A program made the position numbers and the translations under genes. DNA of 51,024 nt, from positions 1-51,024 of the IMG/VR virus record IMGVR_UViG_3300034013_000646. One strand, written 5' to 3'. This DNA is from a virus. Shown here in pieces: positions 4,112 to 38,842 of the stretch. The notes under the pieces are model-generated. The model ran no database searches, was not told the origin of the DNA, and saw nothing but the letters and a program-made list of their open reading frames with translations. Every line of letters starts with the position of its first letter. Positions within the stretch are counted from its first letter, which is position 1.

Positions 4112-4240
4112 AAAAGTTCATAGAACACATTTTTAACCAAATCTAATTATTATGAAATAGTCAAAAACATCCCTGCGATTCGCGGGCGCAATTTTAAAAA
4201 CTTTATAAAAGCCTAATCAATAATACGATTAGGCTTTTTT
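4112..4240 (+). ncRNA. Predicted forward-strand small RNA
   Basis: A transcript of about 130 nt is implied by the consensus promoter at 4075-4105 and the strong intrinsic terminator at 4207-4240. It holds no ORF beyond ATG-AAA-TAG. A bulged GC hairpin (CCCTGCG/CGCGGG) lies near 4170-4185, followed by the terminator stem. It occupies the gap between two minus-strand genes. Its target, if any, is unknown. Confidence 0.5.
4207..4240. terminator. Bidirectional intrinsic terminator
   Basis: AAAAGCCTAATC (4207-4218) pairs with GATTAGGCTTTT (4227-4238): 12 bp with an 8-nt loop. On the plus strand it is followed by TTTTTTGTTTT. On the minus strand a shorter U tract follows, directly after the stop codon of the gene at 4244, so it may end both transcripts. 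Confidence 0.75.
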
Positions 4241-4243
4241 GTT

Positions 4244-4666
4244 TTATACTTTGCAGAATGTCGAGTGCGATTCTAGTTCTTTTTTTTGTTTTTCAAGCAA
4301 GCCTAATAATTCTGTTTCGCTGTTACCAAAGAACTTTGTAGGGTAGTACGGGTCGCCCTCTTTTGCCTTTGCCCTGTACGCCTCAAGTATTTTAAAGCGA
4401 TTATCAATAATTGTTTCAATAGCGTAACAAATTGCTTTGTGTGCTACTAAGTTAGCAGCCGTTCCTTCATGCTCCCATTGCTGCCATTTTTCGCCGTCCC
4501 ATTTTTGGCCTAACGTGGGCATGAGTATTGCCAGTCCGTCGTTAATCATTTGCGACTTGTTTGCCTCTTTTAACATAGCATACATTTCATCTGTAACCCT
4601 AACCCTTAACCAGGTCTTTTTTGGGTTATCGCTTTTTTTTCTGCCTTTTTTTGCTTTATGTGTCAT
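4244..4666 (-). CDS. Hypothetical protein with ribbon-helix-helix-like N-terminus
   Basis: 140 residues. A very basic N-terminus (KAKKGRKKSDNPKK) leads into KTWLRVRVTDEMYAMLKEAN, which has the strand-then-helix pattern of ribbon-helix-helix DNA-binding proteins. The rest is helical with a central W-rich segment (GQKWDGEKWQQWEHEGTAAN) and a charged C-terminal helix. It could be a small DNA-binding regulator, but I do not recognise the family. The last gene before the terminator at 4207. Confidence 0.5.
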   Translation of the reverse strand: MTHKAKKGRKKSDNPKKTWLRVRVTDEMYAMLKEANKSQMINDGLAILMPTLGQKWDGEKWQQWEHEGTAANLVAHKAICYAIETIIDNRFKILEAYRAKAKEGDPYYPTKFFGNSETELLGLLEKQKKELESHSTFCKV

Positions 4667-4685
4667 TGCGTTGTTGTGTGTGTTA

Positions 4686-4916
4686 TTATTTTTTGCGCGT
4701 AACTTTTACCGCGCTTGGCGTGTGCGCGTTGCTGATCGTAAACAAATACCCGCCGCCTTTTGGCGTACTTGTTTGTTTGTCTATGTCCGAAAGTTTAGTG
4801 CATTTCATTGCAGATAAAACACGTCGTTTTATTGCTGGTGTTGCGTTTTTTATTTGCAACACTTGTTGAGGCGCGTTTTCTGTGGCTGGAATAATCCAGT
4901 AGTGTGGTTTACTCAT
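4686..4916 (-). CDS. Hypothetical protein
   Basis: 76 residues, strongly basic at the C-terminus (AVKVTRKK). Contains SDIDKQTSTPKGGGYLF, a possible loop-strand segment. No cysteine cluster, membrane segment or known motif. Spacing of 4 bp to the upstream gene and 19 bp to the next suggests one transcript with 4244-4666. Confidence 0.5.
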   Translation of the reverse strand: MSKPHYWIIPATENAPQQVLQIKNATPAIKRRVLSAMKCTKLSDIDKQTSTPKGGGYLFTISNAHTPSAVKVTRKK

Positions 4917-4920
4917 TGTG

Positions 4921-5229
4921 TTATAATTGATTCCAGTTTACGCCAAATTCATCTGTGCGACCATCTCTCGCATAAACGGTTTCATGTTCATTATAACCTC
5001 CGTTTTTATGCTCCCAAATAACATCTGCAGCCTTGCTTGCGGCTGTCATCTTTTCAAGAATTGGATATATTTCAGGATGTAAATTTTCGATGTCATTATC
5101 CATAATTACTATACCGCAATTGTCTGACCATTCCAATATCTTTACACCATTGTGTAGTACGGAAAAATTTTCAAATGTGCCATTTTGAGGCACACTGTAA
5201 CTCGATTTTATAAACTCGTAATTTGGCAT
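4921..5229 (-). CDS. Hypothetical protein
   Basis: 102 residues, acidic, predicted alpha/beta (ILEWSDNCGIVIMDNDIENL in the centre). The start is preceded by an A/T leader (AATATAAAAATATTATG) shared with several other small genes here, which supports this start. No known family recognised. Confidence 0.55.
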   Translation of the reverse strand: MPNYEFIKSSYSVPQNGTFENFSVLHNGVKILEWSDNCGIVIMDNDIENLHPEIYPILEKMTAASKAADVIWEHKNGGYNEHETVYARDGRTDEFGVNWNQL

Positions 5230-5317
5230 AATATTTTTATATTTTTAAGTTTTAAAATTCCTTCCCGCTTTTACACGGGGCATTGCTGCGTGGTTCGATT
5301 AAAAAGGTGTGTGATGG

Positions 5318-5590
5318 TTAATTGCTTGTATGTAATTCTATTTTGTCCGTAAATCCGTTATAGGATAAATAAACAATATTTCCGAACATGCCTACTTCGC
5401 TTGATTCAATACGAAGCACATATACTGCATTTCCCGCGCCAGTAGCGTATCGACTAGCATTTTTTACGATTAACTTAGATAACTCTTTCGTTTGTTTTAC
5501 ATCTCCTTTTTTGTTGAAAATATTTTCCTTTGGAACAAGCATTGGAGTGGCTTTTTCAATGTTGTTTGCGGCTAATTGTAATAGTGACAT
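5318..5590 (-). CDS. Hypothetical protein
   Basis: 90 residues with a helical N-terminus and a beta-rich C-terminus (NAVYVLRIESSEVGMFGNIV). The start is preceded by the conserved leader AATATAAAAATTATG. The 14-bp motif GTGGTTCGATTAAA (5290-5303) follows its stop and recurs after the stop of the next upstream gene (5627-5640). Function unknown. Confidence 0.55.
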   Translation of the reverse strand: MSLLQLAANNIEKATPMLVPKENIFNKKGDVKQTKELSKLIVKNASRYATGAGNAVYVLRIESSEVGMFGNIVYLSYNGFTDKIELHTSN

Positions 5591-5654
5591 AATTTTTATA
5601 TTTATTTTGCTACCTGCAAATTCCCTGTGGTTCGATTAAAGTAGAAATACAAAA

Positions 5655-5855
5655 CTAAGGCACAAATACCGCCTTTAATTTGCCGGACGGAGTAAAATAC
5701 AATCCGTGCAAAGAGTTATTTTCAATTGCGTTCAAAATATTGTTTGCCTCTCTAATAGATACATATTGCTGAAGTGCATCAATAGTAGCATTAACAAACT
5801 TAACTACCTTTTCAGAGTTTTTTGATTCATGGATTGCAATTTTTTCAACGTTCAT
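5655..5855 (-). CDS. Hypothetical protein
   Basis: 66 residues: a helical core (VKFVNATIDALQQYVSIREA) and a short strand end (GLYFTPSGKLKAVFVP). First gene after the GTTACCAC-class promoter at 5908, with the leader TTTAAAAATTATG before its start. Function unknown. Confidence 0.6.
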   Translation of the reverse strand: MNVEKIAIHESKNSEKVVKFVNATIDALQQYVSIREANNILNAIENNSLHGLYFTPSGKLKAVFVP

Positions 5856-5907
5856 AATTTTTAAAATTTAAGTGAGTGAATAAGTGCGTTACCGCGTTTT
5901 GATAGGT

Positions 5908-5941
5908 CAAAGATACTGGCGTTTTACATTACGGTGGTAAC
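5908..5941 (-). promoter_or_regulatory. GTTACCAC-class promoter, copy A
   Basis: Minus strand: GTTACCAC (5934-5941), exactly 18 nt, then TATCTTTG (5908-5915). The same two boxes with the same spacing occur at 39885, 40528 and 43342. Flanking sequence is also related: TTTCAGAAAATATTGAAAG and GATTGATAAT upstream, A/T leader downstream. It drives the small-gene cluster 5855-4244. Confidence 0.7.
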
Positions 5942-6026
5942 ATTTAATCAATTATTTTTCAAAAAAAGTAATTTTTATTTTTCAGAAAATATTGAAAGTT
6001 TGTAAGTGATTGATAATGAACACAAT

Positions 6027-6064
6027 AAAAAAAGCGCAAAGGTTTTCACCCCGCGCTTTTTTTT
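6027..6064. terminator. Bidirectional intrinsic terminator after the late operon
   Basis: AAAAAAAGCGC (6027-6037) pairs with GCGCTTTTTTT (6053-6063) around a 15-nt loop. It lies 30 bp past the stop of the holin-protease gene, so it ends the long structural and lysis transcript. Confidence 0.8.
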
Positions 6065-6093
6065 GATTAAAATTCCTGTCTTATGCTTACTGT

Positions 6094-8133
6094 CTAATTT
6101 TTTGGAAAGTGCCGCAACTGGTCATTTGTCCACGTTACTACATTGCCGCTGTTGTCGCTTCCTGTTATTCGAGTAATATTAATCGGTATCTTTGTCTTAT
6201 ATTGCGTATAGATCAATAATTCGGCAAAATAGGAACTCCAATACACCGCGTCGGCAAAGTCCGAACCTTGAGCAAGCACAAGCCCCCTGTTAGCAAATAC
6301 AAGCGTACTAAATGCTTCCGCTATTCTTTTGCGCTCTACGTCTGCATTTGTATTGCTATTTACAGATAGTTCAATTTCGGAAATCGTAACAAATTTGGTA
6401 CTATTTGCTTTTATCGTTTTTGCACTTAGTCTTTGTATTTGCGGTATGGCAGACGGCACTGGCTTCCTAGGTAGCGGCGTACTAGGTAGCGGTATATTTT
6501 CGCCCCAATACATTTTATAGTCGTTTTTAAAATTTAGTGTGTAAATTCGTATTGGGCGTACCGGATCGCCTGGTGGTGTTGGTGGTGGTGTTGGCGGTAC
6601 AACCGTGCCGGGTCTAGTATTCAAAACCGCCTCTATTAAAGCGATACCGTACCCAGTGCCGTTATCTTTGCCCGTCGGTGCTATGTCCCTAGAAACAGCC
6701 GCTAAATACGTTTTAACCGCCGTGTAAGTAGGCAGCAAATCGCCCCACTTTGATATTGCAATAGCAACCACGCCCGATAAAAAAGGCGTTGCCATGCTTG
6801 TACCTGAAATTGTAGCGTATTGATTATTTAACCAGCAACTTTGAATACTTCGCCCTGGCTGCGCGTTCCAAACCTGTACGCCCTGTGTGCTGTAAGATGA
6901 ACGCCCGCCCGATTGATCGAGCGAAGCGCACGTAATTGAGTACTGAGACGAACCAGGGTACTGTACACCTTCGCCGCCTGTGTTGCCCGCTGCAATGCAG
7001 TACACGCCGCCCAAATCTGTTATTGCTTTCATTGCTGCCTCTACGTTACCAATTGCCGCCGTGTTGCCGCCAAATGAACCACTTACAACCGTGCGTATTC
7101 CTGCTGCTTTTCTTGCTCTATCTTTTGCAAGTTGATCTACTTCGCACAACCTAAACCACTCAAACGAACCGCCGCCCGTTGCCCCCAAAATTTGATCAAA
7201 CTCGAAAGTAAGAACGCCCGATTTGATAAGGTCGAACGCAATGCCAAAATCCTGTGCAAAGATAATGCCGCCTACGTGCGTCCCGTGTCCGTTACGATCA
7301 ATTCCCCGTGCGTCGGTGGTGTAATTAAACCCCGCCTGTTTGCCCTGCTGCAATTGCGCGTGGTCGGTATCCATTGCGGTATCAACTACCCTAATGTGTA
7401 CCTTGTTTTTGCATTCCGCCGCAATGCGATTACGGAGCGCGTTTAGTTTGTGCTGTTCCGCACCCCAATTCGACACCAGCACCCGTGTGCCGTCCCGTTT
7501 AGTTACACCGCTTTCTATGTTTTGCGGAAATTCACCGGGCTGGGGCAAAATCTCGAATGTATCCTTTTCAAGTTGCTGAACCTGCTCTATGTACGCGCTC
7601 CGTAAATTTCTGTTAGTTTGTCCACTTAAATTATGGCAAAAAAAAACAAGCATTAAAATAGCGGTCGTTTTTGCGGCTGGTAATTTTGGCAACTTTGCGT
7701 TTTTAAATATTTCCCAAATAATAGTAGCAAGTCCAATTGTAGCCGTTAAAATTTGCTGCCAATTGCCGCCAATACCCGCCTCAACGACCGACCTTAAAGC
7801 CACGAACAACTCGGGCGTAAGTGACGGGAAAAGTTGAATAAAAATAACAGATAAAAAGCCCCATGTGTTTGAGTTTTTTACCCATCCAATTGCGTCAATT
7901 TTTGCATCTTTGAAAAAGTTTCTAAATAAGCCAATGCCGCTAATTATAGAAAAAAATGCTTGCACCATCTTTTCGGCTTCGCCCGTAGGAAACCCTACCC
8001 AAAGCGTACCAATTACAAGCGTAATCATTAAGGCGAAGTTTGCGGAAAACAATTTTCCTACAACTACCTCTTTTGTGAGCGGCTCTTTTGCTTTTACCGC
8101 GCCGCTTTTTGCTTTCTGTTTGTTGTCTGCCAT
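6094..8133 (-). CDS. Holin-like membrane domain fused to subtilisin (S8) protease
   Basis: 679 residues. Residues 1-150 hold about four hydrophobic segments (32-48, 56-74, 88-105, 128-143) in the style of phage holin proteins. A fifth hydrophobic stretch (157-170, TTAILMLVFFCHNLSGQ) looks like a Bacteroidota signal peptide now internal. Residues 245-500 are a subtilase domain with the full triad: D251 (RVVDTAMD), H283 (NGHGTHVGG) and S446 (SGTSMATP), plus the oxyanion Asn384 (AAGN). A proline-rich linker then leads to a C-terminal region without a recognised motif. The first triad motif is DTA rather than the usual DTG. Last gene of the late operon, next to the endolysin, so a role in lysis or in cutting host envelope proteins is likely; this is inference. 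Confidence 0.85.
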   Translation of the reverse strand: MADNKQKAKSGAVKAKEPLTKEVVVGKLFSANFALMITLVIGTLWVGFPTGEAEKMVQAFFSIISGIGLFRNFFKDAKIDAIGWVKNSNTWGFLSVIFIQLFPSLTPELFVALRSVVEAGIGGNWQQILTATIGLATIIWEIFKNAKLPKLPAAKTTAILMLVFFCHNLSGQTNRNLRSAYIEQVQQLEKDTFEILPQPGEFPQNIESGVTKRDGTRVLVSNWGAEQHKLNALRNRIAAECKNKVHIRVVDTAMDTDHAQLQQGKQAGFNYTTDARGIDRNGHGTHVGGIIFAQDFGIAFDLIKSGVLTFEFDQILGATGGGSFEWFRLCEVDQLAKDRARKAAGIRTVVSGSFGGNTAAIGNVEAAMKAITDLGGVYCIAAGNTGGEGVQYPGSSQYSITCASLDQSGGRSSYSTQGVQVWNAQPGRSIQSCWLNNQYATISGTSMATPFLSGVVAIAISKWGDLLPTYTAVKTYLAAVSRDIAPTGKDNGTGYGIALIEAVLNTRPGTVVPPTPPPTPPGDPVRPIRIYTLNFKNDYKMYWGENIPLPSTPLPRKPVPSAIPQIQRLSAKTIKANSTKFVTISEIELSVNSNTNADVERKRIAEAFSTLVFANRGLVLAQGSDFADAVYWSSYFAELLIYTQYKTKIPINITRITGSDNSGNVVTWTNDQLRHFPKN

Positions 8134-8134
8134 A

Positions 8135-8395
8135 TTATTTAGATTTTTTCCTACTTTTTGTAGGCTGTGAAAAACTTTCTAGTGTTGCCTGCATTTCCGC
8201 AACCTGAATCGAAAGGTTTAGGCGGTCGCTTTCGCATATGTGCAAGCGGTTAGCAACTAACTGTATTTCAGACCTCAATTCCGTCTTTTGCTCTTTTAGT
8301 TGCTCATTTAAATACCAAACTAAAGCACATAGCAGCACTACTAAAATACTTTGCTCTAATATCTTTTTTTGTAATTCCGTCATTATTTGAATCAT
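8135..8395 (-). CDS. Small membrane protein with coiled coil, possible holin or spanin
   Basis: 86 residues: one N-terminal membrane segment (residues 14-29, ILVVLLCALVWYL), then a charged coiled coil (30-75) and a basic tail (KSRKKSK). The layout suits an Rz-like spanin or a class III holin. A second start (MTELQKK, residue 5) is equally possible. It sits between the HU gene and the holin-subtilase gene, inside the lysis cluster. Confidence 0.55.
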   Translation of the reverse strand: MIQIMTELQKKILEQSILVVLLCALVWYLNEQLKEQKTELRSEIQLVANRLHICESDRLNLSIQVAEMQATLESFSQPTKSRKKSK

Positions 8396-8449
8396 TACAG
8401 CACGGTCGTTTTATTACTTACTGTAATATAAAAACCGTGCCAAATTTTT

Positions 8450-8782
8450 TTATTTAACTTCTAAGTGCTTGACTTGTTCGCGCAAATTAGCCGCAACAAT
8501 GTTGCGTAATTTAATCGCGCCTTTGAACTTAAATTTCAGATAGTCCGGCTTTATCACCTCTTTGCCGTCAACGACATACCTACGACCTATGCAAGCCGCA
8601 ACACGGAACGTTCCTATATCGTCAAGCACAACCGCGTTAACGCCTTGTCCTGCTGCCTCTGCAATGTTCTGAAACGCTAAATTTATAACGTCGCGCAAAA
8701 CATCTTCGTCAAGTCCCGTTTGACTTTCAAGGCGTTTTACTAAGTCGCTTGTGTCGTAATAACCTGTTACTAATTTACTCAT
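8450..8782 (-). CDS. HU/IHF-like DNA-binding protein
   Basis: 110 residues. Residues 11-60 follow the HU plan: paired helices, then AVVLDDIGTFRVAACIGRR, matching the GFGxF-xVxxRxxR arm base of HU proteins. The C-terminus (LKFKFKGAIKLRNIV) corresponds to the final strand and helix. Bacteroidota phages often carry divergent HU proteins that may organise phage DNA. Here it lies among late lysis genes, 5 bp from the endolysin gene on one side. Confidence 0.75.
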   Translation of the reverse strand: MSKLVTGYYDTSDLVKRLESQTGLDEDVLRDVINLAFQNIAEAAGQGVNAVVLDDIGTFRVAACIGRRYVVDGKEVIKPDYLKFKFKGAIKLRNIVAANLREQVKHLEVK

Positions 8783-8787
8783 AATAG

Positions 8788-9261
8788 TTATTTTTTATTG
8801 TTATTTAATCTTGTGTATTTTGCGCTGCCATCTTTGCGGCGCGTTGCAATTACCGCGCTTTGTCGGTTTTTGCGGCGTGTTGTGTACGAAATATGTACCC
8901 ATTCCCCGAACTCCTCAATGACCTGATCGAACTCAATGCCTGACAATAAAATAAGGTGAAACAGTTCGTTTGCCGTGTAGCCTTTTGCGTGTATGTCTGC
9001 TGCTTCGCCTCGTAGATGCTGCGAATTTGGCGCACCGCCAACAGCCCTATTTAATGCTACACATCTAAACCCGCTCGAAACTCGAATAGATACGCCCAAC
9101 TTATCACATAGAGGTTGCAAAACGTTTTCACATAAAGCGGTTAATGCGGTTGTCTGCTTTTCGTTCGGAATGTTTTGTATTCCGCGCCGTGTTGCAGTAT
9201 CGCTATGTATCATTTTGCGCAAACTAAAATCCTTTGTTATTTGTCCGTCGGGTGTAAGCAT
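8788..9261 (-). CDS. M15-family peptidase (endolysin)
   Basis: 157 residues. It carries the zinc site of peptidase M15A: S80-x-H82-x-x-G85-x-A-x-D89 (SQHLRGEAADI) and the third ligand H123 in WVHIS. The length is normal for the catalytic domain alone. Such enzymes cut D-Ala-containing peptide crosslinks in peptidoglycan, and in phages they act as endolysins. No signal peptide, so export would need a holin, consistent with the adjacent membrane proteins. A basic C-terminus (TRRKNR, TRRKDGSAK) may aid wall binding. Confidence 0.85.
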   Translation of the reverse strand: MLTPDGQITKDFSLRKMIHSDTATRRGIQNIPNEKQTTALTALCENVLQPLCDKLGVSIRVSSGFRCVALNRAVGGAPNSQHLRGEAADIHAKGYTANELFHLILLSGIEFDQVIEEFGEWVHISYTTRRKNRQSAVIATRRKDGSAKYTRLNNNKK

Positions 9262-9266: not shown

Positions 9267-10136
9267 TTATATTTTAAGGTAAGACATTTTTGACCCTGCC
9301 TTTAATGTTACATTGCTTGTTCCCACCTCCGACCGTAAACGCATTTGAACTGTGCCGCCCGTTACAACCGTAACAAGCCAAACACCCTCGATATACGTGC
9401 TAATTGTTGCGGCGGGATTACCGCTTGTTCCGCTACCATTTATCGCCGTTGTGCCTGCTATTGCATCATTTTGCACCTGTTGCATAGAACTAAGTGTTTG
9501 CGCCCCGATTTGATTTGTAACGCGACCCATTACGACGGTAGCGTCATTAGGCGCGTTAAGTGCTAACCCTATACCTGTCACCGCGCTTGCAAATGTCGCA
9601 AAACCGTACAACCGCACTACATACGACGTGTTTGCTTCCGCTGTAAAAGATAGCCCCGTTACGTCTGTTAAAGTTATTGTACTGTTGCTAATATCGCTCG
9701 GTAAATTTACAAACGTCTCAGAATTTATAACAGGTAAAGCCTGTTGTATGTTTAATTGCAGTGTACTATCTTCTACCCAACTACCAATTTTTTGCGTAAA
9801 AATTGCAGTAGGCTTTGTGGCCGTAAATGTGCCGCCTGTTCCTAAGAAATAGTCTTTGCCCTTTTCGAGCGCAAAACCTTGCAATGTGCCGCTATATGCA
9901 ACTTGTATTGTGTCATTTGCAGCGAACGCCGTATCTATTGCAATAGCGACCGCCGCGCTGTCTATTTTTGTATTGCTTGCTATCCATGCCTTGCCCGCTG
10001 TAATCCTAACAAGCGACCAATTTGGTATTGCTTCGCCTGCTAAAATGGTTGTGACGTTGCTTGCTCCAATTATTCGCGGTTGTGCGTTTACCGAAAAGCA
10101 GCAAAAAAGAGCCAAAATAATAATAATGTACTTCAT
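9267..10136 (-). CDS. Secreted-type fibre-module protein
   Basis: 289 residues from MKYIIIILALFCCFSVNAQ, a textbook signal peptide with the Bacteroidota end N-A-Q. A longer frame to 10250 exists, but this start is 4 bp after the upstream stop and gives the signal peptide at the terminus, so it is preferred. The rest is beta-rich and Gly/Thr/Ala-rich, resembling tail-spike or capsid-decoration repeats (GTTAINGSGTSGNPAATIST), ending in a segment typical of fibre tips. Role unknown; fifth of five consecutive signal-peptide proteins. Confidence 0.65.
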   Translation of the reverse strand: MKYIIIILALFCCFSVNAQPRIIGASNVTTILAGEAIPNWSLVRITAGKAWIASNTKIDSAAVAIAIDTAFAANDTIQVAYSGTLQGFALEKGKDYFLGTGGTFTATKPTAIFTQKIGSWVEDSTLQLNIQQALPVINSETFVNLPSDISNSTITLTDVTGLSFTAEANTSYVVRLYGFATFASAVTGIGLALNAPNDATVVMGRVTNQIGAQTLSSMQQVQNDAIAGTTAINGSGTSGNPAATISTYIEGVWLVTVVTGGTVQMRLRSEVGTSNVTLKAGSKMSYLKI

Positions 10137-10140
10137 GTCT

Positions 10141-10848
10141 TTAATTTCGTATGTAGTAATAGGCCGCACTTTTTGAAATAGCAGACGCGGCAAACGAGAT
10201 GCCAAAGTCTGCTGCATAGTGCCACCATTTTGTATTTGCTTTTGTCCCAATCCCCAGTATTACGCCGCCTGTAATATATCCAATTTTGCGCGTGTCGTCG
10301 GCAAAATGGTAAAAATCATTTGCGCCCGTCCATTTTATAAAACCCGACTTAAATCCGTTTTCAGGATCGCCGCCCACGTAAACAGAACGCCAACTTTCCG
10401 AACCCCAAAATCCTGTTTTTGATGCGTTCCATTTGCGATCAAAACTTGTACGCCCATCGTGTAGATAGCCCTCCAAAAGTCCGTCCGCTGCACCACCGAC
10501 CGCGATCAACGACCAAGCGAACATTTTTGTACGGGTTATTTTGTAGGTACTTGCAACCGTCCGAAATTTGCGGATAGTTGAGGGCTTTTGTTGTGGTGTA
10601 AAATCGCGGTACTCGTTCGGGCGAAAAGTGTGCGTTTCTGCTGTGATAAATAGGTCGCGACCGCCAACACTTAAAGGCGTGTTCATTATGTAACCGCTAG
10701 TAACACCAAACACCCCGCACTTATTAGGGTCAAACGCTACAATAGTATCCTGACATAAATAAACGCCGCCCACAATTGGATTTAATCCTTGCGCCTGTGC
10801 AGATAGGCTGCACAACAAAAGCAGCATTATTAATTTAATATTTTCCAT
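10141..10848 (-). CDS. Secreted or envelope protein of unknown function
   Basis: 235 residues. Signal peptide MENIKLIMLLLLCSLSAQAQ. The mature part has a Tyr/Trp/Gly-rich C-terminal half (residues 120-230) with moderately hydrophobic segments (MFAWSLIAVGGAADGL, IGYITGGVILGIGT, AADFGISFAASAIS), so it could associate with a membrane. It is not repeat-like and does not look like a fibre. It overlaps the next upstream gene by 19 bp. Possible roles include lysis or superinfection exclusion, but nothing in the sequence decides. Confidence 0.65.
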   Translation of the reverse strand: MENIKLIMLLLLCSLSAQAQGLNPIVGGVYLCQDTIVAFDPNKCGVFGVTSGYIMNTPLSVGGRDLFITAETHTFRPNEYRDFTPQQKPSTIRKFRTVASTYKITRTKMFAWSLIAVGGAADGLLEGYLHDGRTSFDRKWNASKTGFWGSESWRSVYVGGDPENGFKSGFIKWTGANDFYHFADDTRKIGYITGGVILGIGTKANTKWWHYAADFGISFAASAISKSAAYYYIRN

Positions 10849-11564
10849 ACTTTGCCCCTTGTGTTGTATTTGTAAATTTTGCCGTCAATTATTACCGTGC
10901 CATCTGCAAGCAATATCGTTTTGCTGGTTTGCGGATCGCTTTCTTGTGTTGGTTCGCTTGCGCTTCTTGACCTATTTGTGTCCGATATTGGGCGCAATTC
11001 ATACTGATTATTAATGTTCCTGTATACCTTATTTGTATTACTTGTTCTGTACAAGTCCGTCGTATACCCGTTTAGATTGTAAAGCCTAACAATGCTACCC
11101 AAAAATGTCATTGTGCGCCACGTTGTAGCCGTGTCCGCTCTCCATTGCCAATTTGTAGCCGTTCGCCTAAATCTAATGCCTGTATTATTTATTCTCCAAA
11201 AGCCATTAGTGTATAAATTAGGCTCTTTTTTTGCAATACTATCAAGTGGATTCCTCCCAATAATAGTACCGATGTTTCGAGAATATCGGGAAAGTTCTGT
11301 AATTCGCCTCCTTAGCGTAGCCGCGTCCCTTGCAATTGCAGCCGATTGCGTTGCCTCCGCTTCGATTTTGCCCGACAAAGACAATAAAGCCGCCGTTGTG
11401 TCCCCTATTTTTGTGGTATTTATTGTTTCAACATCGCCAAAAACCTGCAAACGTGATTGGTAAAAAACTCCGGCACGGTTAAAAATCCATGTGCTATCAA
11501 CGTCCTGTGCAAAAGCATTGCTAAAGGAAATAAAAAAGATGCTTAAAATGAAAAGATATTTCAT
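10830..11564 (-). CDS. Secreted-type protein with coiled coil, possible fibre component
   Basis: 244 residues. Signal peptide MKYLFILSIFFISFSNAFAQ, then DVDSTWIFNRAGVFYQSRLQ, a helical coiled-coil-like stretch at about 60-100 (IEAEATQSAAIARDAATLRR) and a C-terminal part rich in W, R and Y. The C-terminus (GTVIIDGKIYKYNTRGKVWK) looks like a small beta structure. Coiled coil plus beta tip is a common fibre plan; the signal peptide is not. Confidence 0.6.
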   Translation of the reverse strand: MKYLFILSIFFISFSNAFAQDVDSTWIFNRAGVFYQSRLQVFGDVETINTTKIGDTTAALLSLSGKIEAEATQSAAIARDAATLRRRITELSRYSRNIGTIIGRNPLDSIAKKEPNLYTNGFWRINNTGIRFRRTATNWQWRADTATTWRTMTFLGSIVRLYNLNGYTTDLYRTSNTNKVYRNINNQYELRPISDTNRSRSASEPTQESDPQTSKTILLADGTVIIDGKIYKYNTRGKVWKILN

Positions 11565-11585
11565 GTTATAATAATTTATTTTGTT

Positions 11586-11900
11586 TTAATAGAATTTAGT
11601 TACAATGATATTGAAAACTGCTGATGCTGGGTCGCTTGAACCGCCCGAACCATAACGATTGTATCTTACCGTTACCGTGTTGGCTGCTGAAACCCACGCC
11701 GTGTAGCAACTATTCGCTACAATTGCCTCAACACCGGGTGCAACTGTCACCGCGTCACCGACCGCCGCTCCTGTTACCGTTACCGTTAAGTCACTGCCTG
11801 AGTGCGCGCCTGTTGACGGGAAATTAAGCGTTGCGGACGCTTTGATAATTGCAGGTATGGTGTGCCATGATGTGCCGTCGTAATTTTCTAGTTTACCCAA
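11586..11900 (-). pseudogene. C-terminal part of a frameshifted fibre gene
   Basis: 104 residues read from an internal ATG (MGKLENYDGTSWHTIPAI). The same frame is open upstream to the 28-bp duplication at 12047-12102. Removing one copy of that duplication joins it to the N-terminal part at 12034-12999 (… ITGRDASNRITDAA … PYGFNTDLGKLENY). The tail is a beta-rich domain ending IIVTKFY, like the end of the neighbouring 984-residue fibre (WHVLNSSQ … LNVIIRN). It is probably made only when the repeat contracts, or by internal initiation. Confidence 0.6.
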
Positions 11901-12033
11901 ATCTGTGTTAAACCCATACGGGTATTCGCCGCTTGCTGGTGTCGGCCTTGTTGCTGTTGTCCATACTTTTGTCGCTGCGCTTAGCGTTCCGCCGGCAAAA
12001 GATAAACCCGTGCCTATTGCCGCGTCTGTTATC

Positions 12034-12999
12034 CTATTGCTTGCATCCCTGCCCGTTATTGTTGCTGCTGTTGACCCTGCCCGTTATTGTTGCTGCTGTT
12101 GACCCTGACGACGGAATTGTTACAATGCCTGATGAAACGGAAAAACTTTCTATTGGCTGTGTTGGCAGAACAGAACCAGCTGCCACACTTTCGTACGGGG
12201 CGGTCAAAACCTTAAACCCTGTTGCTGTTGCAATTATTGCGCTTTTGCCAATTGCACCATAGTTAAACCCGCTTCGCCATAAAGTGCCGCCGTCCTGGTA
12301 CATATAATTTCCTAATCCTATGCCGCCGCTCCCAAACTCTGTTATTACATTTTGCGCGTTATTGCCGTCGTAATTTGCCCTTAATAAAACTGAACCGTCT
12401 GTTGCCGCTCCTGTGCCTGCTACGATTTGCCCGTTTACGTACATTTTTGCGCTTGCAATAGGTGATGCCCCAACCCCTACACTTGTACCGTTGTCCTGTA
12501 TTTGACTATTTGCTATTGCACTTAAACCGCTAAATTTTGTTACATAATTTGCCGTACCCGTCCCCGTAACCGTGCCTTGTGGTATATTGAAAGAGCCGCC
12601 GCCATTGCTTAGTGTGACAGTTGGCGCACTATACGATATTGTTTGATACGCCTCTGTTTTTGGTTTTACCCATGCCACACCATTCCATGCGTATATTTCT
12701 GGGTTTGGAGTGCATGAATTTATAACAATTAACGAATTGTGTTTTGCAGGTGTGTAATTAGGTGCGGAACAACCTGTTATTTGCTGGATTCGATCACCGC
12801 TTTTTGCCCACGTTGTGCCACTAATGTGTTCATACCAAATATAAGAATTTTGGTCAACCGCAAATTTTGCCCCGCTTACGCCCGGGTTTGTTGTCGGCGC
12901 GCCCGTTGTCCAAATAAATGTACCAACTCCCTGTGAACTACATTTTTTTGCGCCTAATAAATTTACGATCAAAAAGACCGCTAAAAAAAGTAATCTCAT
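12034..12999 (-). CDS. Tail-fibre-like protein, N-terminal part (frameshifted)
   Basis: 321 residues. Signal peptide MRLLFLAVFLIVNLLGAKKC followed by SSQ. The body has the Gly/Thr/Asn-rich pattern of phage fibres (LSNGGGSFNIPQG, TGTGTANYVTKFSG) and shares modules with the upstream fibre. The last 14 residues (RVNSSNNNGQGCKQ) come from a shifted frame caused by a 28-bp tandem duplication. Without it the protein would continue through 11586 to about 460 residues. Probably a host-recognition fibre that is off in this sequence. Confidence 0.65.
   Translation of the reverse strand: MRLLFLAVFLIVNLLGAKKCSSQGVGTFIWTTGAPTTNPGVSGAKFAVDQNSYIWYEHISGTTWAKSGDRIQQITGCSAPNYTPAKHNSLIVINSCTPNPEIYAWNGVAWVKPKTEAYQTISYSAPTVTLSNGGGSFNIPQGTVTGTGTANYVTKFSGLSAIANSQIQDNGTSVGVGASPIASAKMYVNGQIVAGTGAATDGSVLLRANYDGNNAQNVITEFGSGGIGLGNYMYQDGGTLWRSGFNYGAIGKSAIIATATGFKVLTAPYESVAAGSVLPTQPIESFSVSSGIVTIPSSGSTAATITGRVNSSNNNGQGCKQ
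12047..12102. repeat. 28-bp tandem duplication that shifts the fibre reading frame
   Basis: Two perfect 28-bp copies at 12047-12074 and 12075-12102 (each starts CCCTGCCCGTTATTG and ends GCTGCTGTTGA), followed by 5 bases of a third. Since 28 is not a multiple of three, the copy number decides whether the two fibre ORFs are joined. Slipped-strand mispairing could change it. Confidence 0.85.
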
Positions 13000-13003
13000 A
13001 TTT

Positions 13004-15958
13004 TTAGTTTCTAATTATTACGTTTAGTTTGTAAGTTTGCCCTGCCGTTAATGTGCCGTTTGCGCGTATTGTGTAACTACCTGTCGTTTGTGTATCTACA
13101 TAAAATTTTGTTATTTCGGACGCGGTTAATTGGTTGGCCGCTGAAAAAACAACCGTCGGGGCAACACTCCACGTGTTTGGAAAAGTTCGAGTGTAAATAA
13201 CCGCGTTTGCGGTTGGTGCTGTTCCAACCAATAGCGTTACCGTGTATGCCATTTCCGCCCCGCTATTTACTGTTATTGTAGGCGTTGTGCCTAGTGCGCC
13301 GCCCGCTGTTAAAGAAACGCTTTGCGAACTATTAAGAACGTGCCAGTTTGCGCTTGCCGTCCTTGTTTCTAGTCCAAACATACTACTATTGTACCTTAGC
13401 CATCTTAACGCGCTTGTGGGTCTGTTTCCTGTATTTCCGCTGCTTAGCGCTATTCCGTCAGTCGTGTTGTCCATATCAATCGAGGCCAATGGTGCTTCTT
13501 TATTTATGCCAAATTTTCCATCAGTTGTTATTGATAGCCCCGTTGATCCGCCGCCCAATTGCGCAAAAGGCTGCAACTTAAAACTGTTACCTTCCGATGA
13601 ATTGTCAATACCGTGAATCCATTTTGTAGTCGCACCTACCAAATTATATTGTACAGCCGGGTCGCCACCAGCCGCCGCCGTGTTTACCTGCAAAATAGTG
13701 CTACCTGTTCCGCTGTTTTCTAGTCTGTGTAGGTAGTTTGTCGTAGTTATGCCCGTTGTGTTGCCTGTCATATCAAGGCCATAAATAGTTTCACCAGCCG
13801 CCGCCGTTGCCGTTGTTTGTATTGTGCTTCCGAAACTTGGCAAAGTACCAGCGTTTACTTGTAACCCTACGCTTGTGCTATTGCCTGTTACATTTAAACG
13901 ACCCGAGCCTGGTGTTGCTGTGCCAACCGATAAATTTGTGCCGTCAAATGCAAAATTATTTGTTGCTGTAATTGCGTTCGTTCCGCTCCAATACGCTACT
14001 TTGTTTGCTATGCCTGTGCCGCCAACCGTTCCCGATGCGTTTAATATGCCGCCTGTTATGCTTAATCCTGTTCCTAATGCAATATCCCTACATATATTAT
14101 CCGAGCCAAACCCCGCTATCGTTGTGGCCGTGCCTGTTCGAGTTGAAACCTTTAAATTTCCGACAACATCTAACTTTGCGGTTGGGGTTACGCCTGTGCC
14201 TATGCCCACATTGCCGTTTAGTCCGTCAATGAACATTCTGAGCGTATTTGTCGGTGTTACGATATTTGGATCTGCAAAAAAGGCCAAGCCGCCTTGGTTG
14301 CCATTTTGCGCCCTGTCAACACCTGTAATAGAGCCAAAAATGTATCCTCCAATACCTTGAAAATCAATCCCCATATAGTTGGGCGACGTCGTTTCTCCCC
14401 CTAAATTATAATCAGAAAAAATACTCATTTTTAGCCCTTTTGCCGCGCTTCTGTAATGCAGTCCGTACGATGGCGAAGTGGTGCCTATACCTACGTTTCC
14501 CCCGTTAAAAAATGAGTTTGCGCCTGTTGAAAAACGTATCTTTTCAGAACCTGCATAGTCGTAAAAACTTGCATCGTTAACAGAGCCCGATTGACCGTAC
14601 CCGATGCGAAAAAGAAACCGAGCCCCATTTTCGCTAAAAACGTCAAATTCGCCTTGTTCGCCATCCGATGACGTTGAAGCAGCATAAAACAATGTACGCC
14701 CTGCGCCCCCAACCAAATTTTGAGTAACAAATCGTGATGTACGGAGTGAACTAGATGCTGAATTAAATTGATCTATTTGTAGGCCGTTTAAGCCCGTGCC
14801 AGCCGCCGCCGCGTATGTATGTACGCTGTTGTTTGGTGACGCTACCCCAATACCCAATCTAAAGTTTGACGGATCGTAATTTAGGCCAATATTTGATGCA
14901 ATTGTTTTTGTTCCTGTAAAATATGATACTTGTGTTGCTGCGCCTGTTCCTGTTATATCCCCTTGCGGAATAGCAACCGAACCGCCGCTCAAACTTAGAG
15001 ACAAATTAGGTGCAGAATATGAAAGTGTTTGTATCTCGTTTGTAGTACTTAAATCACCCGTGTTTGTAACCGTCACAACGCCCGCGCTACTTGCTACGCC
15101 TATACCAGTACCCGCCGCAACACCAACAACGGGCAAATTAACACCCATACCCGAACTTATGCCCAATGCCTGACCTGTTAATGACAAATTTTGTATTTCG
15201 TTAGCAGGGTTTGCGTCCGCGTCGTTAACATTCAAATTCAATGTGCCGCCGCCATTTGACAGGGTTATATTCCCAGCCGCACCCGTGGTACTGATAGTTT
15301 GGTTAATGTTAGGAGCAGTATTGGTTATTGTCAAATCAGTACCAGTGGCCGCTAAAGAAATAGATGTTCCAGCCACAAAGTTAACATCCGTACCCGTTGA
15401 ACTATTTAGCGTTACGGGCGAACTTGTACCTGTAAAAGATAAATTTGTGCCACCTGACGAAGCAGGTGAAGTAATAATGTATTTTTGTGTAAGTGTATCA
15501 AAAAATACCGTTGTGCCGCCCCTGCCTACAATCTTAATAGTGTCTAAGTAATTTATTGCGGTTGTACGTAAGCTATCCGATGCAAAAAATGAAAAGTCAA
15601 CATTTGCGCCCGCGCAAAAAGTAGAATCAATAAAACCTGAAATTGTAGAAAAACCCGTTTGGTTTAACGGTATGGTTATACGGTCGGGGTTTGTTCCGGT
15701 CTGCTCAATAAATTCAACTGAATTACCAGGGCGTAAACGGATTAAATACGGTTCATCTATCCACCTATTAAAAACACCTAATCGGTACACCATAAGGCCG
15801 TTAAAAGACCTGCTTTGAAAACTTGTACCGACGCAAATATCACAACTATCGCCTGTCATATTTGCATTGCTAAAACATTCAAATTCAAAAATAGGACTTT
15901 GAGCCTTTGCACTCAATCCTAAAAAAATGACTATTAATGTAGTTACTATAAATCTCAT
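13004..15958 (-). CDS. Large tail fibre / adhesin with signal peptide
   Basis: 984 residues. N-terminal signal peptide MRFIVTTLIVIFLGLSAKAQ, then a Cys-containing head region (residues 28-42, FSNANMTGDSCDICVGTSFQ). Then come long Gly/Ser/Thr/Asn-rich beta repeats with recurring NVGIGTxxP-type and TGTGxAxxVxYxxG modules, and a beta C-terminal domain (residues 890-984). This composition is that of long phage fibres in Bacteroidota phages. It sits directly after the baseplate-like gene (2 bp gap) in the host-recognition module. The signal peptide is unexpected for a virion part assembled in the cytoplasm. Confidence 0.75.
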   Translation of the reverse strand: MRFIVTTLIVIFLGLSAKAQSPIFEFECFSNANMTGDSCDICVGTSFQSRSFNGLMVYRLGVFNRWIDEPYLIRLRPGNSVEFIEQTGTNPDRITIPLNQTGFSTISGFIDSTFCAGANVDFSFFASDSLRTTAINYLDTIKIVGRGGTTVFFDTLTQKYIITSPASSGGTNLSFTGTSSPVTLNSSTGTDVNFVAGTSISLAATGTDLTITNTAPNINQTISTTGAAGNITLSNGGGTLNLNVNDADANPANEIQNLSLTGQALGISSGMGVNLPVVGVAAGTGIGVASSAGVVTVTNTGDLSTTNEIQTLSYSAPNLSLSLSGGSVAIPQGDITGTGAATQVSYFTGTKTIASNIGLNYDPSNFRLGIGVASPNNSVHTYAAAAGTGLNGLQIDQFNSASSSLRTSRFVTQNLVGGAGRTLFYAASTSSDGEQGEFDVFSENGARFLFRIGYGQSGSVNDASFYDYAGSEKIRFSTGANSFFNGGNVGIGTTSPSYGLHYRSAAKGLKMSIFSDYNLGGETTSPNYMGIDFQGIGGYIFGSITGVDRAQNGNQGGLAFFADPNIVTPTNTLRMFIDGLNGNVGIGTGVTPTAKLDVVGNLKVSTRTGTATTIAGFGSDNICRDIALGTGLSITGGILNASGTVGGTGIANKVAYWSGTNAITATNNFAFDGTNLSVGTATPGSGRLNVTGNSTSVGLQVNAGTLPSFGSTIQTTATAAAGETIYGLDMTGNTTGITTTNYLHRLENSGTGSTILQVNTAAAGGDPAVQYNLVGATTKWIHGIDNSSEGNSFKLQPFAQLGGGSTGLSITTDGKFGINKEAPLASIDMDNTTDGIALSSGNTGNRPTSALRWLRYNSSMFGLETRTASANWHVLNSSQSVSLTAGGALGTTPTITVNSGAEMAYTVTLLVGTAPTANAVIYTRTFPNTWSVAPTVVFSAANQLTASEITKFYVDTQTTGSYTIRANGTLTAGQTYKLNVIIRN

Positions 15959-15959
15959 T

Positions 15960-16583
15960 TTATACTATTGTTACTCGTTTTAAGAATCCAGGCAAACCCG
16001 CCGTGCTGCTTTCGTTGTGCCAAAACGGATCGTGATAAGATAGTCCGTCATCAATTGCGCTTTCGTCGCTGTCATACTCAGGTAGCAAATTTAATGCCTC
16101 GATAATTTGCGCGTCCGTTGGCGGTATGTATGCGTTTACATGTACCTCTATTGTAGTTTCAGGAACTTCGACAATTAAATCACTTTCGCCGCTCCAAAAA
16201 TTACCGCAACCGCCGCCGCAATCGGACGGCGTTGTACTTGCAAGCACAAAACAAAATTGAACAAATGCCCGTCGTTCGTCGTCTGTATCTGTTACCCACA
16301 AAGTGCCAAATACCTGCACATCACCGCGGCTATCAAACACAAGTGTATCGCCCTCAATGCCCAATAAAATAGAACCATTTGCCGCGCTAATTACCGTAAT
16401 ACCGTCACCTACCGATAAAGATTGAATAACAACGCCGCCCGCCGTAATAATATCCATATTAAAATCATAACCCGCAATATTTACAGGTAATGAATTTTGT
16501 GTGATAATTACAGGCAAAGGAATATCCGTACCCTGTAACGATCTTATTTTAACCTTTTGCGGTGCTATGTTTATAGTAGGCAT
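15960..16583 (-). CDS. Baseplate upper protein-like (BppU-like N-terminus)
   Basis: 207 residues from MPTINIAPQKVKIRSLQGTD. The first 120 residues resemble the N-terminal domain of BppU-type baseplate proteins: strand-rich, a GxxFxMDI segment (GYDFNMDIITAGG), then ITVISAANGSILLGIEGDTL. Two cysteine pairs (DCGGGCGNF) follow in the middle. A longer frame would start at 16619, inside the terminator hairpin, so the inner start is preferred. Probably connects fibres to the tail tip. Confidence 0.55.
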   Translation of the reverse strand: MPTINIAPQKVKIRSLQGTDIPLPVIITQNSLPVNIAGYDFNMDIITAGGVVIQSLSVGDGITVISAANGSILLGIEGDTLVFDSRGDVQVFGTLWVTDTDDERRAFVQFCFVLASTTPSDCGGGCGNFWSGESDLIVEVPETTIEVHVNAYIPPTDAQIIEALNLLPEYDSDESAIDDGLSYHDPFWHNESSTAGLPGFLKRVTIV

Positions 16584-16605
16584 ACTGGTATTTTTAAAGC
16601 AAAAA

Positions 16606-16639
16606 CCCCCGAACCCCAAAAAGCAATGAGGCGCGGGGG
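16606..16639 (-). terminator. Intrinsic terminator between head and fibre modules
   Basis: On the minus strand CCCCCG (16634-16639) pairs with CGGGGG (16606-16611) around a 22-nt loop, followed by TTTTTGCTTT. It lies 29 bp past the stop of the gene at 16668. The loop is long, so it may be partial and allow readthrough. Confidence 0.55.
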
Positions 16640-22340: not shown

Positions 22341-23237
22341 TTATTTTGTCATTTTTTTAGCGCGTTTCATTGCGTATTGGAAATTACCTATACTGTCAAC
22401 CAAACCGCGTTGTTTTGCTTCGTTTGCCGGGAACATTGCGCCCGATAATGTTTTATTTATATTGCTTGCACTCCCTGTTAAACGCCGTGCATTTTTTACT
22501 TCGTTGTGGAATTGCGTAGTAAGTTGGTCGATGTATTCTTGCAATTTGCTGCTATCACCGTCAATTAACGCCCTTTGCCCGCCGTTCTTTTCAGGCGTTT
22601 GTGTGGAATATATAAACTGGTAACGTTCGCGGTATTCTTGCAATACGGCTTTGTCGATTGGAATAAATGTACCAAGGCTGCCAAACTCTGCTGCTTCGCC
22701 CGATGCGATCTTTTCATCTACGCCAACAAGCCCGCGATATGCCGCCGACGCTTCCATATGCGACCAACTGATTACAGGTTTATTTCTTTCAGATATTGCA
22801 ACCTGCAACTTTGCGCCTGCTATACTTTCACCGCCGCCGCTTTCGCTTTCGATAATAATGCTGTCAATATTTGTGTTTTCGTATGCGTCACGTAGCCAAC
22901 CCGTAAATGTGTCCATTCCGTAACTACTAATACCATCCTGCGAACGCATAACGCCCTGTAATTTCAGTAAAGCAGTTGAGCCGCGTGGTATAGCGTCGTT
23001 TCTTTGTAGGTTCATTGCGCTAACGAGTACGCTTTGTGGCGTAACAATTTGCGGCAAAGATTTTTCGCGACGTTTTGATATGCCCAATTCAGCAAAAGGA
23101 ACACCCGCTTGCAACATCGCTAATTCCGAAAAATATCCATTTAACGCCGTCCACCCAAACGCCTCGTTTACCTCCCATACCTGTACAGATGAAAGGGCTA
23201 ATTCAATCGCGTTATTTAAAAATTGTCGCTGCTCCAT
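22341..23237 (-). CDS. S49/ClpP-like prohead protease
   Basis: 298 residues. Contains the SppA/S49 signature: ALLKLQGVM strand, SIIIESESGGGESIAGA, and MEASAAYRGLVGVDEKIASG followed by EAAEFGSLG, which lines up with the A-A-S-A-A-Y-W active-site loop and the GSIG loop of S49 peptidases; the catalytic serine is the S of EASAAY. Such proteases mature the procapsid by cutting scaffold and capsid proteins. It is the first head gene after the forward-strand cassette and probably needs a new promoter. Confidence 0.8.
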   Translation of the reverse strand: MEQRQFLNNAIELALSSVQVWEVNEAFGWTALNGYFSELAMLQAGVPFAELGISKRREKSLPQIVTPQSVLVSAMNLQRNDAIPRGSTALLKLQGVMRSQDGISSYGMDTFTGWLRDAYENTNIDSIIIESESGGGESIAGAKLQVAISERNKPVISWSHMEASAAYRGLVGVDEKIASGEAAEFGSLGTFIPIDKAVLQEYRERYQFIYSTQTPEKNGGQRALIDGDSSKLQEYIDQLTTQFHNEVKNARRLTGSASNINKTLSGAMFPANEAKQRGLVDSIGNFQYAMKRAKKMTK

Positions 23238-32900: not shown

Positions 32901-33361
32901 GCCGCTGTTACACCTAAAGCCCCAAAAACGCCATCGAACGCGCTTTTGTAATTGCCGACGTTACCAGTAAAACGTCCTATGCTTTGCTCTATTCCATCAA
33001 TCTGCTTTTTTAGGTTTGCCGCGTTTTTTATAAGGCTTTGCCCTAAAATGCTTTTTCTTTGAACCTCGTCAAGTTTAGATATTTCAACGGACAACTTTGA
33101 ATACTGCAACCGCAACCCCGCCAACGAATCGGTAGGAACTTTTAACGATTTTAATTCTGCATTAAGTTTCTTTTGTTGCTCAGTTAGGTCATTGATAGCA
33201 AGTTTTGCATTAACAGCCGCCTGTCTTAATAATTTTTGCCCCTCACTGCCATCTTCTACCTTTTTAAGTTCTTTGTTTATTGCCTTTAGCGCGTCCCGTT
33301 GCTTTGCAAGTTCCGTGGCGACATTAACATCGTTTGCTACCAGTTCAAATATTAACTTCAT
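29945..33361 (-). CDS. Tail tape measure protein
   Basis: 1138 residues, the longest ORF. Residues 15-75 are a coiled coil (KQRDALKAINKELKKVEDGS). Residues about 130-460 match the TP901-type tape-measure core: Ala/Gly-rich helices, with a LGINAERGSTASVRLLQRLA segment as is typical. Long charged coiled coils at 640-960 follow, then a Gly/Ala-rich hydrophobic segment (IIAGALATVKALPNVPLVIA, near 985) and the FAVGGFTGKGAYVDETGERV block found at the end of many Bacteroidota phage tape measures. Length sets the tail length, suggesting a siphovirus tail of about 170 nm by the usual 0.15 nm per residue. Confidence 0.85.
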   Translation of the reverse strand: MKLIFELVANDVNVATELAKQRDALKAINKELKKVEDGSEGQKLLRQAAVNAKLAINDLTEQQKKLNAELKSLKVPTDSLAGLRLQYSKLSVEISKLDEVQRKSILGQSLIKNAANLKKQIDGIEQSIGRFTGNVGNYKSAFDGVFGALGVTAAIGAVTGAFAKFNDVNAKTSDGIADVAKAADASIPEIQALADLLEQRNTRTSLVDQLGIAEIGGKLGVAKAELFDFTESVDTLNVALGDQFGGSAEQTTEVVGKLRNVLTDIKSEKISEDILRIGNALNFLEAQGASSASATADFAGRIAGAAQPLGVTSNKIIGLSATLDELGINAERGSTASVRLLQRLATAPEAFAAAIDEPAQDFKQLVNDDIFGALQLFITKLNSKELSNTALSQTLKTLDVDGAGVSEVVGKLGENMDLLSKRVTQAGTALGNTDSITQEFQKKNATFGASIDKLSNSFNALFTNSRLSSSLGDAINLLAEFVGGVAVATDKIFNLSGKTTGLSAANEILSTSLEDANKQLAVETINTEKNFNVLKNDKASRDQRNQAISNLLKIYPDVLTQQELEKASIGQLTVLQKDLTNTLRDQVIERSKIQAKAAIEQEILDRKVRQVQLDATPDRAFVRELTFGEVARVAKDVGLIEVDEIQAARKSLKSQVEGDIAALENKLKQVDANFTAITNNRENNLSDIEQDELDRRRQFADSNRVIAKTQKDIIANNDGLSKSEIKVKKERDAAIGSIDFLEKKVSDLKASLEAAKPDQIPKILGNLVEAEKELKTLQDSIDRLRAAPLTDQQQIEAGSKQAAVELGVPDEAKIKELTDAQREAAVEFSQFDIETTAETEEIKNQLIRAANQQKIELTKEQVDAQLKIEEEAEKRKQEIREAFINAAFDSAIALTQSIANEQARKVDDEKDKELSALDEEYEKKRELAQGNAQALEAIDKEYATKKDEIEKEAARERKRIALIESIIAGALATVKALPNVPLVIATGIGAAVQSAIIARQKFAVGGFTGKGAYVDETGERVVDAKLHEDEYVAPRSQVQMFPSLFKELDRLRTKRGASTGTGYATGGFSTAPGISLSTSQSRAQSSLNIEAKASIDKESVYFIAEQVAKETYAAIAQGLNDADRTNERKQQLIQLTEI

Positions 33362-38805: not shown

Positions 38806-38842
38806 GTTGCGCGGCTCTACTAGTCCGCACTTTGCGTATTTG

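Follow-up and report, generated by a model that had tools for sequence, protein, structure and literature searches.

Assembly of tailed phages is classically described as cytoplasmic, yet a number of phage proteins have been described that use, or appear to use, the host Sec route. The secreted endolysin Lys44 of phage fOg44 and the signal-anchor-release (SAR) endolysins are exported in this way during infection (PMC6116005), and Lom of lambda is a signal-bearing outer-membrane protein encoded in the tail-fibre region. In Nixviridae phages of Porphyromonas gingivalis, five genes of unknown function carry signals that expose an N-terminal Gln (the Bacteroidetes "Q-rule") and may modify the host outer membrane (PMC10367356), while signal peptides have been mentioned on lyases of Ingeline and Nekkels (PMC8776804). 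Fibre proteins used outside the cytoplasm are found in the predatory bacterium Bdellovibrio, where Bd2439-type proteins serve in prey recognition (PMC10769870). Literature searches for signal peptides on phage fibres gave only these partial notes, and the general pattern described below seems unreported in the papers searched.

Signal peptides in the fibre block

The window analysed here is the whole 51,024-nucleotide stretch of the virus record IMGVR_UViG_3300034013_000646, from a phage of a probable Bacteroidota host. A first-pass annotation had proposed that five consecutive fibre-module genes, identified by the positions 13004, 12034, 10830, 10141 and 9267, encode products with Sec-type signal peptides ending in AQ or SQ, directly after the baseplate gene. 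This observation was confirmed. All five products start with a short basic n-region, a strong hydrophobic core (best 9-residue mean Kyte-Doolittle 3.0-3.6) and a small residue followed by Gln (Table 1). A rule-based scan for Q-rule Sec/signal-peptidase-I signals identified these five and no others among 82 ORFs of the window; shuffled proteins passed at 0.37% (91 of 24,600), equivalent to about 0.3 expected, and the chance that five random hits fall on five adjacent genes is about 3e-6 (78 of C(82,5)). In 10141 the scan placed the cut two residues earlier than shown, between SLSA and QAQ. A generic signal predictor recovered all ten E. coli exported proteins tested, although one lipoprotein was called as the wrong signal type, and in the lambda tail region it called only Lom, and not J or the other fibres.

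Four corrections to the first-pass annotation were required. The 9267 gene begins at the ATG at 10136, not at the longest ORF start at 10250. The ORF at 12034-12999 is the 5' part of a longer gene, which has been broken by a tandem duplication and of which intact relatives exist. The placement directly after a baseplate gene is only plausible, as the 15960 protein has a weak hit to a PHROG of unknown function. Finally, 10141 has a predicted export signal but no fibre features, and the block is better described as four fibre-like genes plus one predicted exported protein of unknown function.

Table 1. Features of the fibre block and its surroundings. Signals are given up to the residue preceding the +1 Gln; L numbers denote phage loci compared with the window.
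Position (strand)	Product	Signal	Supporting observations
13004..15958 (-)	Large fibre protein (984 aa); cysteine-bearing N-terminal domain, GIGTTSP-type repeats, receptor-binding C-terminal part	MRFIVTTLIVIFLGLSAKA	C-terminal 464 aa is 56% identical to the C-terminus of the 771-aa L002 protein, whose N-terminal domain is unrelated but which also has a Q-rule signal; signal identical in L001, with two synonymous changes only
11586..12999 (-)	Second fibre gene (12034); conserved ~107-aa N-terminal part (signal included), variable C-terminus	MRLLFLAVFLIVNLLGAKKCSS	Frame broken by a 28-bp tandem duplication at 12047-12107; relatives of 482, 648 and 883 aa are intact, keep the N-terminus and replace the rest
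10830..11564 (-)	Fibre-like protein (244 aa); long helix then beta domain (predicted)	MKYLFILSIFFISFSNAFA	Relatives at 59% and 56% identity in L022 and L023, again last in a run of four Q-rule genes; weak AF2 model (pLDDT 57.6, 46-residue helix, beta domain at pLDDT about 70-80)
10141..10848 (-)	Predicted exported protein of unknown function (235 aa); probably not a fibre	MENIKLIMLLLLCSLSAQA	Conserved C-terminus; no further membrane span by hydropathy; place taken by two unrelated small Q-rule proteins in L024
9267..10136 (-)	Fibre protein (289 aa); conserved mature N-terminal domain (~117 aa), exchangeable tip	MKYIIIILALFCCFSVNA	Relative in L001 carries a Gly_rich_2 tip (PF21722) and matches PHROG_754 minor tail protein; PHROG_4368 (unknown function) match, E=9.8e-9
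15960..16619 (-)	Protein just upstream of the fibre block; candidate virion-side adaptor	None	PHROG_1084 match, E=0.0016; the same PHROG lies beside the signal-bearing fibre genes in L002 and L037
6094..8133 (-)	Fused holin-like region and subtilase (679 aa); may be a sixth exported protein	ILMLVFFCHNLSG (internal signal-like stretch before the protease)	PF00082, E=4.5e-23; same fusion in L024; the two parts lie in different frames in L001 and L002

The block lies between structural and lysis genes of a tailed-phage genome, which encodes a tape measure, terminase and head protease, with an endolysin and the subtilase downstream. A conserved N-terminal part with an exchanged C-terminal part, typical of receptor-binding fibres, was found in the 12034 and 9267 families, and the 13004 C-terminus was found on another N-terminus; this was not seen for 10141. 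Searches of the window proteins gave no Pfam fibre hit and only a weak tail-fibre PHROG hit (E=0.017) at the 3' end of the 12034 gene, while relatives matched Gly_rich_2, PHROG_754 and SO2946-like_C. No C-terminal sorting domain of type IX secretion cargo was found in Pfam or NCBIfam. The strongly hydrophobic cores followed by a signal-peptidase site are not those of SAR proteins, which have a weakly hydrophobic, uncleaved anchor. Cysteine content was counted but was too uneven to support an argument.

Among 50,697 annotated phages, no close DNA or protein relatives were found for 13004, 10141, 10830 or the intact 12034 relative, and only one weak match was found for 9267. Comparison with solved structures gave nothing significant. 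AlphaFold models built from 3-4 sequences were weak (pLDDT 58 and 43) and fold searches with them gave no match below E 0.001, therefore TNF/C1q-like and Bd2439 hits for 9267 are leads only. No relatives of the two proteins tried were found in a bacterial and archaeal genome collection, at the limited sensitivity of that scan, and the assignment to a Bacteroidota host is consequently a probable one.

Signal-bearing fibres in other phages

The same arrangement, of two to five adjacent signal-bearing fibre genes, occurs in many unrelated phages. In the cultured Cellulophaga phages phi10:1 (gp91-94), phi19:1 (gp101-103), phi18:3 (gp85-87) and phi39:1 (gp25-26), twelve Q-rule proteins are annotated in their records as detected in virions by MS/MS. 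On the strength of that annotation, signal-bearing fibres are virion parts in these phages; for the window this is an inference from the shared plan, and no close sequence homology links its fibres to those detected beyond short repeat matches. Signal and MS detection were associated in phi10:1 plus phi39:1 (6/3 v 20/119, Fisher p=0.001). Cellulophaga phages of different families share the same signal-bearing lyase and carry one N-terminus on different proteins. Of eight fibre genes found through an internal repeat and complete at the N-terminus (L033-L037, L040, L041 and L043), all eight have a signal.

Forty of 41 block genes, including the 4331 gene of L041, have Gln at +1, against an average of 71% for Bacteroidetes signal peptidase I substrates (PMC5837995), though most blocks were noticed through the Q-rule scan and the comparison is partly circular. 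In several pairs the signal drifts to 42-56% identity while the mature N-terminus (the next 60 residues) stays at 67-98%, with A, G or S before the site and Q after it remaining fixed. The receptor-binding part moves between unrelated docking domains, each with its own signal. These data point to cleaved export signals rather than anchors. Export is not a general need, however, as several Bacteroidota phages (P12002L, 11b, Versailles, BS-TP3, B40-8, FCL-2, phi18:1 and phi38:1, as far as these were read) have no signal on their tail genes.

Proposed export of the fibres and alternative explanations

The first-pass annotation offered four options without choosing between them, and its interpretation was partly supported: fibres exported and added at lysis is the option best supported here. 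In this view, held with moderate confidence, the block encodes the receptor-binding fibres of a siphophage; each subunit would be exported by the Sec translocon of the host and cut by signal peptidase I before the Gln, which is probably cyclised to pyroglutamate (in phi18:3 gp85 the peptide diagnostic of cleavage would be QVLVPENTGYGYDNLTTVQLNALTK). The subunits would fold and trimerise outside the cytoplasm and join the cytoplasm-built tails when the cell lyses, docking through their conserved mature N-terminal domains. The sequences themselves show the signals, their restriction to this block, their recurrence in unrelated phages and the modular evolution of the fibres, and presence in virions rests on the annotation by others of cultured phages of the same plan; cleavage, location, docking at or after lysis and virion membership of the window's own proteins are inferred. 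There is no known tailed-phage precedent for how an exported fibre meets the tail.

An alternative, which appears unlikely but is the strongest of the rivals, is that the signal-bearing proteins are not virion parts but act on the surface or surroundings of the infected cell, blocking receptors against superinfection or degrading capsule. The signals are well supported, some of the Cellulophaga proteins are annotated as pectate lyases, Lom and the Bdellovibrio fibre proteins offer parallels, and 10141 fits this better than a fibre role. However, it does not explain the annotated detection of twelve such proteins in virions, where they are the obvious fibre candidates, nor the conserved docking-type N-terminus with exchanged C-terminus; coating of the cell is not excluded as an additional role. 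A dual fate, in which part of each fibre pool is exported and part is built into tails in the usual way, is also unlikely. It would reconcile the signals with detection in virions, and export of abundant late proteins can be incomplete, but no internal start or weakened signal was seen, the hydrophobic cores are strong, and an uncleaved pool would carry a hydrophobic helix into the virion.

Uncleaved hydrophobic N-termini anchoring cytoplasmic fibres in the tail are still less likely. The signal is kept on every fibre of the block, and in Cellulophaga phages the signal plus about 22 residues is found as a unit on different proteins. A docking helix should nevertheless be conserved, whereas it drifts while the residues that follow are kept; an anchor does not need Gln after a signal-peptidase motif, and different docking domains all carry generic signals. 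Recent capture of host surface genes, with the signals as relics, is very unlikely, since although the signals follow the rule of the host phylum, the bacterial genome scan, at its limited sensitivity, gave no relatives of its two queries, the genes recur in many phage backbones and they show fibre-type module exchange.

A broader reading, considered as likely as not, is that a large group of tailed phages builds its virion in two compartments, with head and tail made in the cytoplasm and receptor-binding fibres exported by Sec and joined to the particle only when the envelope opens. These would be mainly phages of Bacteroidota but perhaps also of other phyla, as L037 and L043 have three or four adjacent signal-bearing genes at the fibre position, mostly without the +1 Gln. 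If fibres of many Bacteroidota phages are exported and processed by the host, a step of virion assembly lies outside the cytoplasm and depends on host Sec, signal peptidase I and perhaps glutaminyl cyclase. This would explain signal-bearing phage genes of unknown function, suggest that fibres act on the host surface before lysis, and offer a sequence mark for finding receptor-binding proteins that Pfam and PHROGs miss.

Comparison with described systems

The Cellulophaga phage blocks are the closest in plan to the window, with two to four adjacent fibre- or lyase-like genes, each with a Q-rule signal, beside the tail and lysis genes, and with N-termini shared between different C-termini. They show no clear full-length homology to the window's proteins, the window phage is uncultured, and their signals as a group are not discussed in the papers found. 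The Q-rule proteins of the P. gingivalis phages share the exposed N-terminal Gln but were not tied to fibres or virions. Lom is a single outer-membrane protein and not a fibre, and is a better parallel for 10141. The Bdellovibrio proteins share use of fibres outside the cytoplasm, and the hit of the low-confidence 9267 model to Bd2439 was weak and non-significant, but they are encoded by a bacterium and are not part of a phage. Lys44 and the SAR endolysins share with the proposed fibres the use of the host Sec route during infection, but are lysis enzymes and not virion parts.

Secretion signals and gene structure of the fibre block

The 51 kb sequence, from an uncultured virus, has the gene content of a siphophage-type genome and is read mainly on the minus strand; the locations of the genes and other features discussed here are listed in the table below. 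The gene order is unusual, with the terminase followed by the tail genes (tape measure), then the head protease and capsid- and portal-like genes, and finally the fibres. Among the annotated phages that matched over most of the terminase, those with names were phages of Bacteroides, Polaribacter, Cellulophaga and Flavobacterium at 36-41% identity, therefore a Bacteroidota host is likely but not proven.

Locations of features in the window and in the other virus contigs compared (L001 to L043)
Contig	Feature	Position	Remarks
Window	Terminase large subunit	36181-37602	
Window	Tape measure	29945-33361	
Window	Head maturation protease	22341-23237	
Window	Region from terminase to fibres (unusual gene order)	15958-37602	
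Window	Endolysin-like peptidase	8788-9261	
Window	Holin-like region fused to subtilase	6094-8133	Intact fusion; internal signal-like stretch
L024	Holin-like region fused to subtilase	12012-14051	Intact fusion
L001	Holin-like region and subtilase	13459-15446	Two parts in different frames after a run of T
L002	Holin-like region and subtilase	12438-14464	Two parts in different frames after a run of T
Window	Perfect tandem duplication in second fibre gene (12034)	12047-12107	28 bp, 2.2 copies
Window	Possible tRNA (ARAGORN)	38842-38916	Anticodon undetermined
L022	Further Q-rule protein, ~180 aa	15364-15906	Downstream of head-protease-like genes, away from fibre block
L023	Further Q-rule protein, ~180 aa	15007-15570	Downstream of head-protease-like genes, away from fibre block
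L037	Adjacent signal-bearing genes	4207-8836	Signals mostly lack +1 Gln
L043	Adjacent signal-bearing genes	4963-8368	Signals mostly lack +1 Gln; tail-fibre PHROG and Laminin_G_3 matches
L041	Region in which a signal-bearing 158-aa protein precedes the fibre genes	3011-8055	Genes resemble the window's backbone by eye

The first-pass annotation had described five consecutive fibre-module genes (13004, 12034, 10830, 10141 and 9267, each named by its position) whose products begin with Sec-type signal peptides, and this observation held, with corrections to individual genes. Each of the five products begins with a Sec-type signal ending in a small residue followed by Gln. A rule-based scan of all 82 ORFs for signals of this Q-rule type identified these five and no others, while shuffled proteins passed the same scan at a rate of 0.37%. 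Gln at +1 is the mark of signal peptidase I substrates in Bacteroidetes, in which on average 71% have this residue (PMC5837995). A generic signal predictor recovered known E. coli signals and, in the lambda tail region, called only Lom. The signal of 13004 differs from that of its counterpart in contig L001 by two synonymous changes only.

Three of the genes required correction. The 9267 gene starts at 10136. The 12034 ORF ends early owing to the tandem duplication, which may be an assembly error or real length variation in a fibre gene; the downstream frame runs on to 11586, and relatives have the intact gene. The 10141 protein is predicted to be exported but shows no fibre-like exchange pattern, and in contig L024 it is replaced by two unrelated small signal-bearing proteins. 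A sixth exported protein may be encoded by the fusion of a holin-like region and a subtilase, in which the internal signal-like stretch ends in SG followed by Q; the separation of the two parts into different frames in L001 and L002 could reflect homopolymer errors or frameshifting.

Modular evolution and recurrence of signal-bearing fibre genes

The signal-bearing genes evolve in the manner of fibres. In the 12034 family about 107 N-terminal residues are kept and the remainder is largely unrelated between relatives, while in the 9267 family the first 135 residues are kept and the C-terminus of the L001 relative is a Gly_rich_2 tip with a match to a minor-tail PHROG. The C-terminal 464 residues of 13004 reappear at 56% identity in a 771-aa protein of contig L002, in which both the N-terminal part of the protein and the tail genes are different, yet this protein too has a Q-rule signal. 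The signal therefore stays when the docking domain is changed.

The same arrangement recurs in other contigs. L022 and L023, which have largely different backbones, carry four adjacent Q-rule genes. A scan with an L022 fibre, which matched distant contigs mostly through an internal repeat, returned eleven further contigs beyond its own lineage (L033-L043), and in the eight in which the matched gene has its N-terminus within the locus, all eight have a signal, usually with signal-bearing neighbours. In blocks listed by position in Bacteroidota-like contigs, Gln was present at +1 in 40 of 41 genes, counting gene 4331 of L041. Most of these blocks were first noticed with the Q-rule scan and this count is partly circular, whereas the count of eight of eight is not, as the search did not use the signal. 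In L041 the signal-less gene at 15960 of the window is absent, its place being taken by the signal-bearing 158-aa protein. L037 and L043 are clear tailed phages (portal in both, terminase in L043) with three or four adjacent signal-bearing genes, and their hosts are perhaps not Bacteroidota.

The feature is not universal. No Q-rule signal was found on the tail genes of P12002L, 11b, Versailles, BS-TP3, B40-8, FCL-2, phi18:1 and the part of phi38:1 that was read.

Signal-bearing proteins annotated in virions

In cultured Cellulophaga phages annotated by virion MS/MS, the fibre block is built of such proteins: gp91, 92, 93 and 94 of phi10:1, gp101, 102 and 103 of phi19:1, gp85, 86 and 87 of phi18:3, and gp25 and 26 of phi39:1. 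All twelve have Q-rule signals. The product of gp104 of phi19:1, also MS-detected, has a signal-like start ending in FG followed by K. In phi10:1 and phi39:1 together, signal and MS detection are associated (Fisher p = 0.001), although the counts rely on annotation text, some of it incomplete. The same signal plus about 22 residues sits at 88-93% identity on otherwise different proteins, and a near-identical signal-bearing lyase is shared by phages assigned to different families, Assiduviridae and Pachyviridae. The link from these proteins to those of the window is by plan and position, sequence matches being limited to short repeats.

Cleaved signal or anchor, and relation to known systems

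If the hydrophobic helix docked the fibre to the virion it should be conserved. Instead, its identity falls to 50% (9267, window against L002) while the next 60 residues are 95% identical, to 42% against 67% (10830, window against L022) and to 42% against 75% (gene 7194 of L022 against L023), with the site between A and Q fixed. This was not shown by every pair, as in 12034 and 10141 the signal is as conserved as, or more conserved than, what follows. Taken with the +1 Gln, these data suggest that a cleaved signal is far more likely than an anchor. The interpretation in the first-pass annotation, which had left open several options including export with addition at lysis and hydrophobic N-termini as virion anchors, was partly supported.

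The proposed mechanism is export by host Sec, processing by signal peptidase I, probable cyclisation of the Gln, folding outside the cytoplasm and docking to tails at lysis. The signals are read directly from the sequence, whereas cleavage, the compartment and the docking step are inferred. Fibres or tailspikes of T4 and P22 can be added to particles in extracts, so late addition is plausible. Export before lysis could also cover or trim host receptors. The signal-less 15960 protein, which weakly matches PHROG_1084, is a candidate adaptor on the virion side; the same PHROG lies beside the signal-bearing genes in L002 and L037.

No paper linking signals, fibres and virions was found, in a literature search that did not extend to most subscription papers or to any preprints. 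One survey reported that DGR target proteins of phages lack signal peptides (PMC6199706), which fits a feature confined to some lineages. Q-rule proteins of unknown function were noted in P. gingivalis phages (PMC10367356), and signal peptides on lyases of Ingeline and Nekkels were mentioned in one sentence (PMC8776804).
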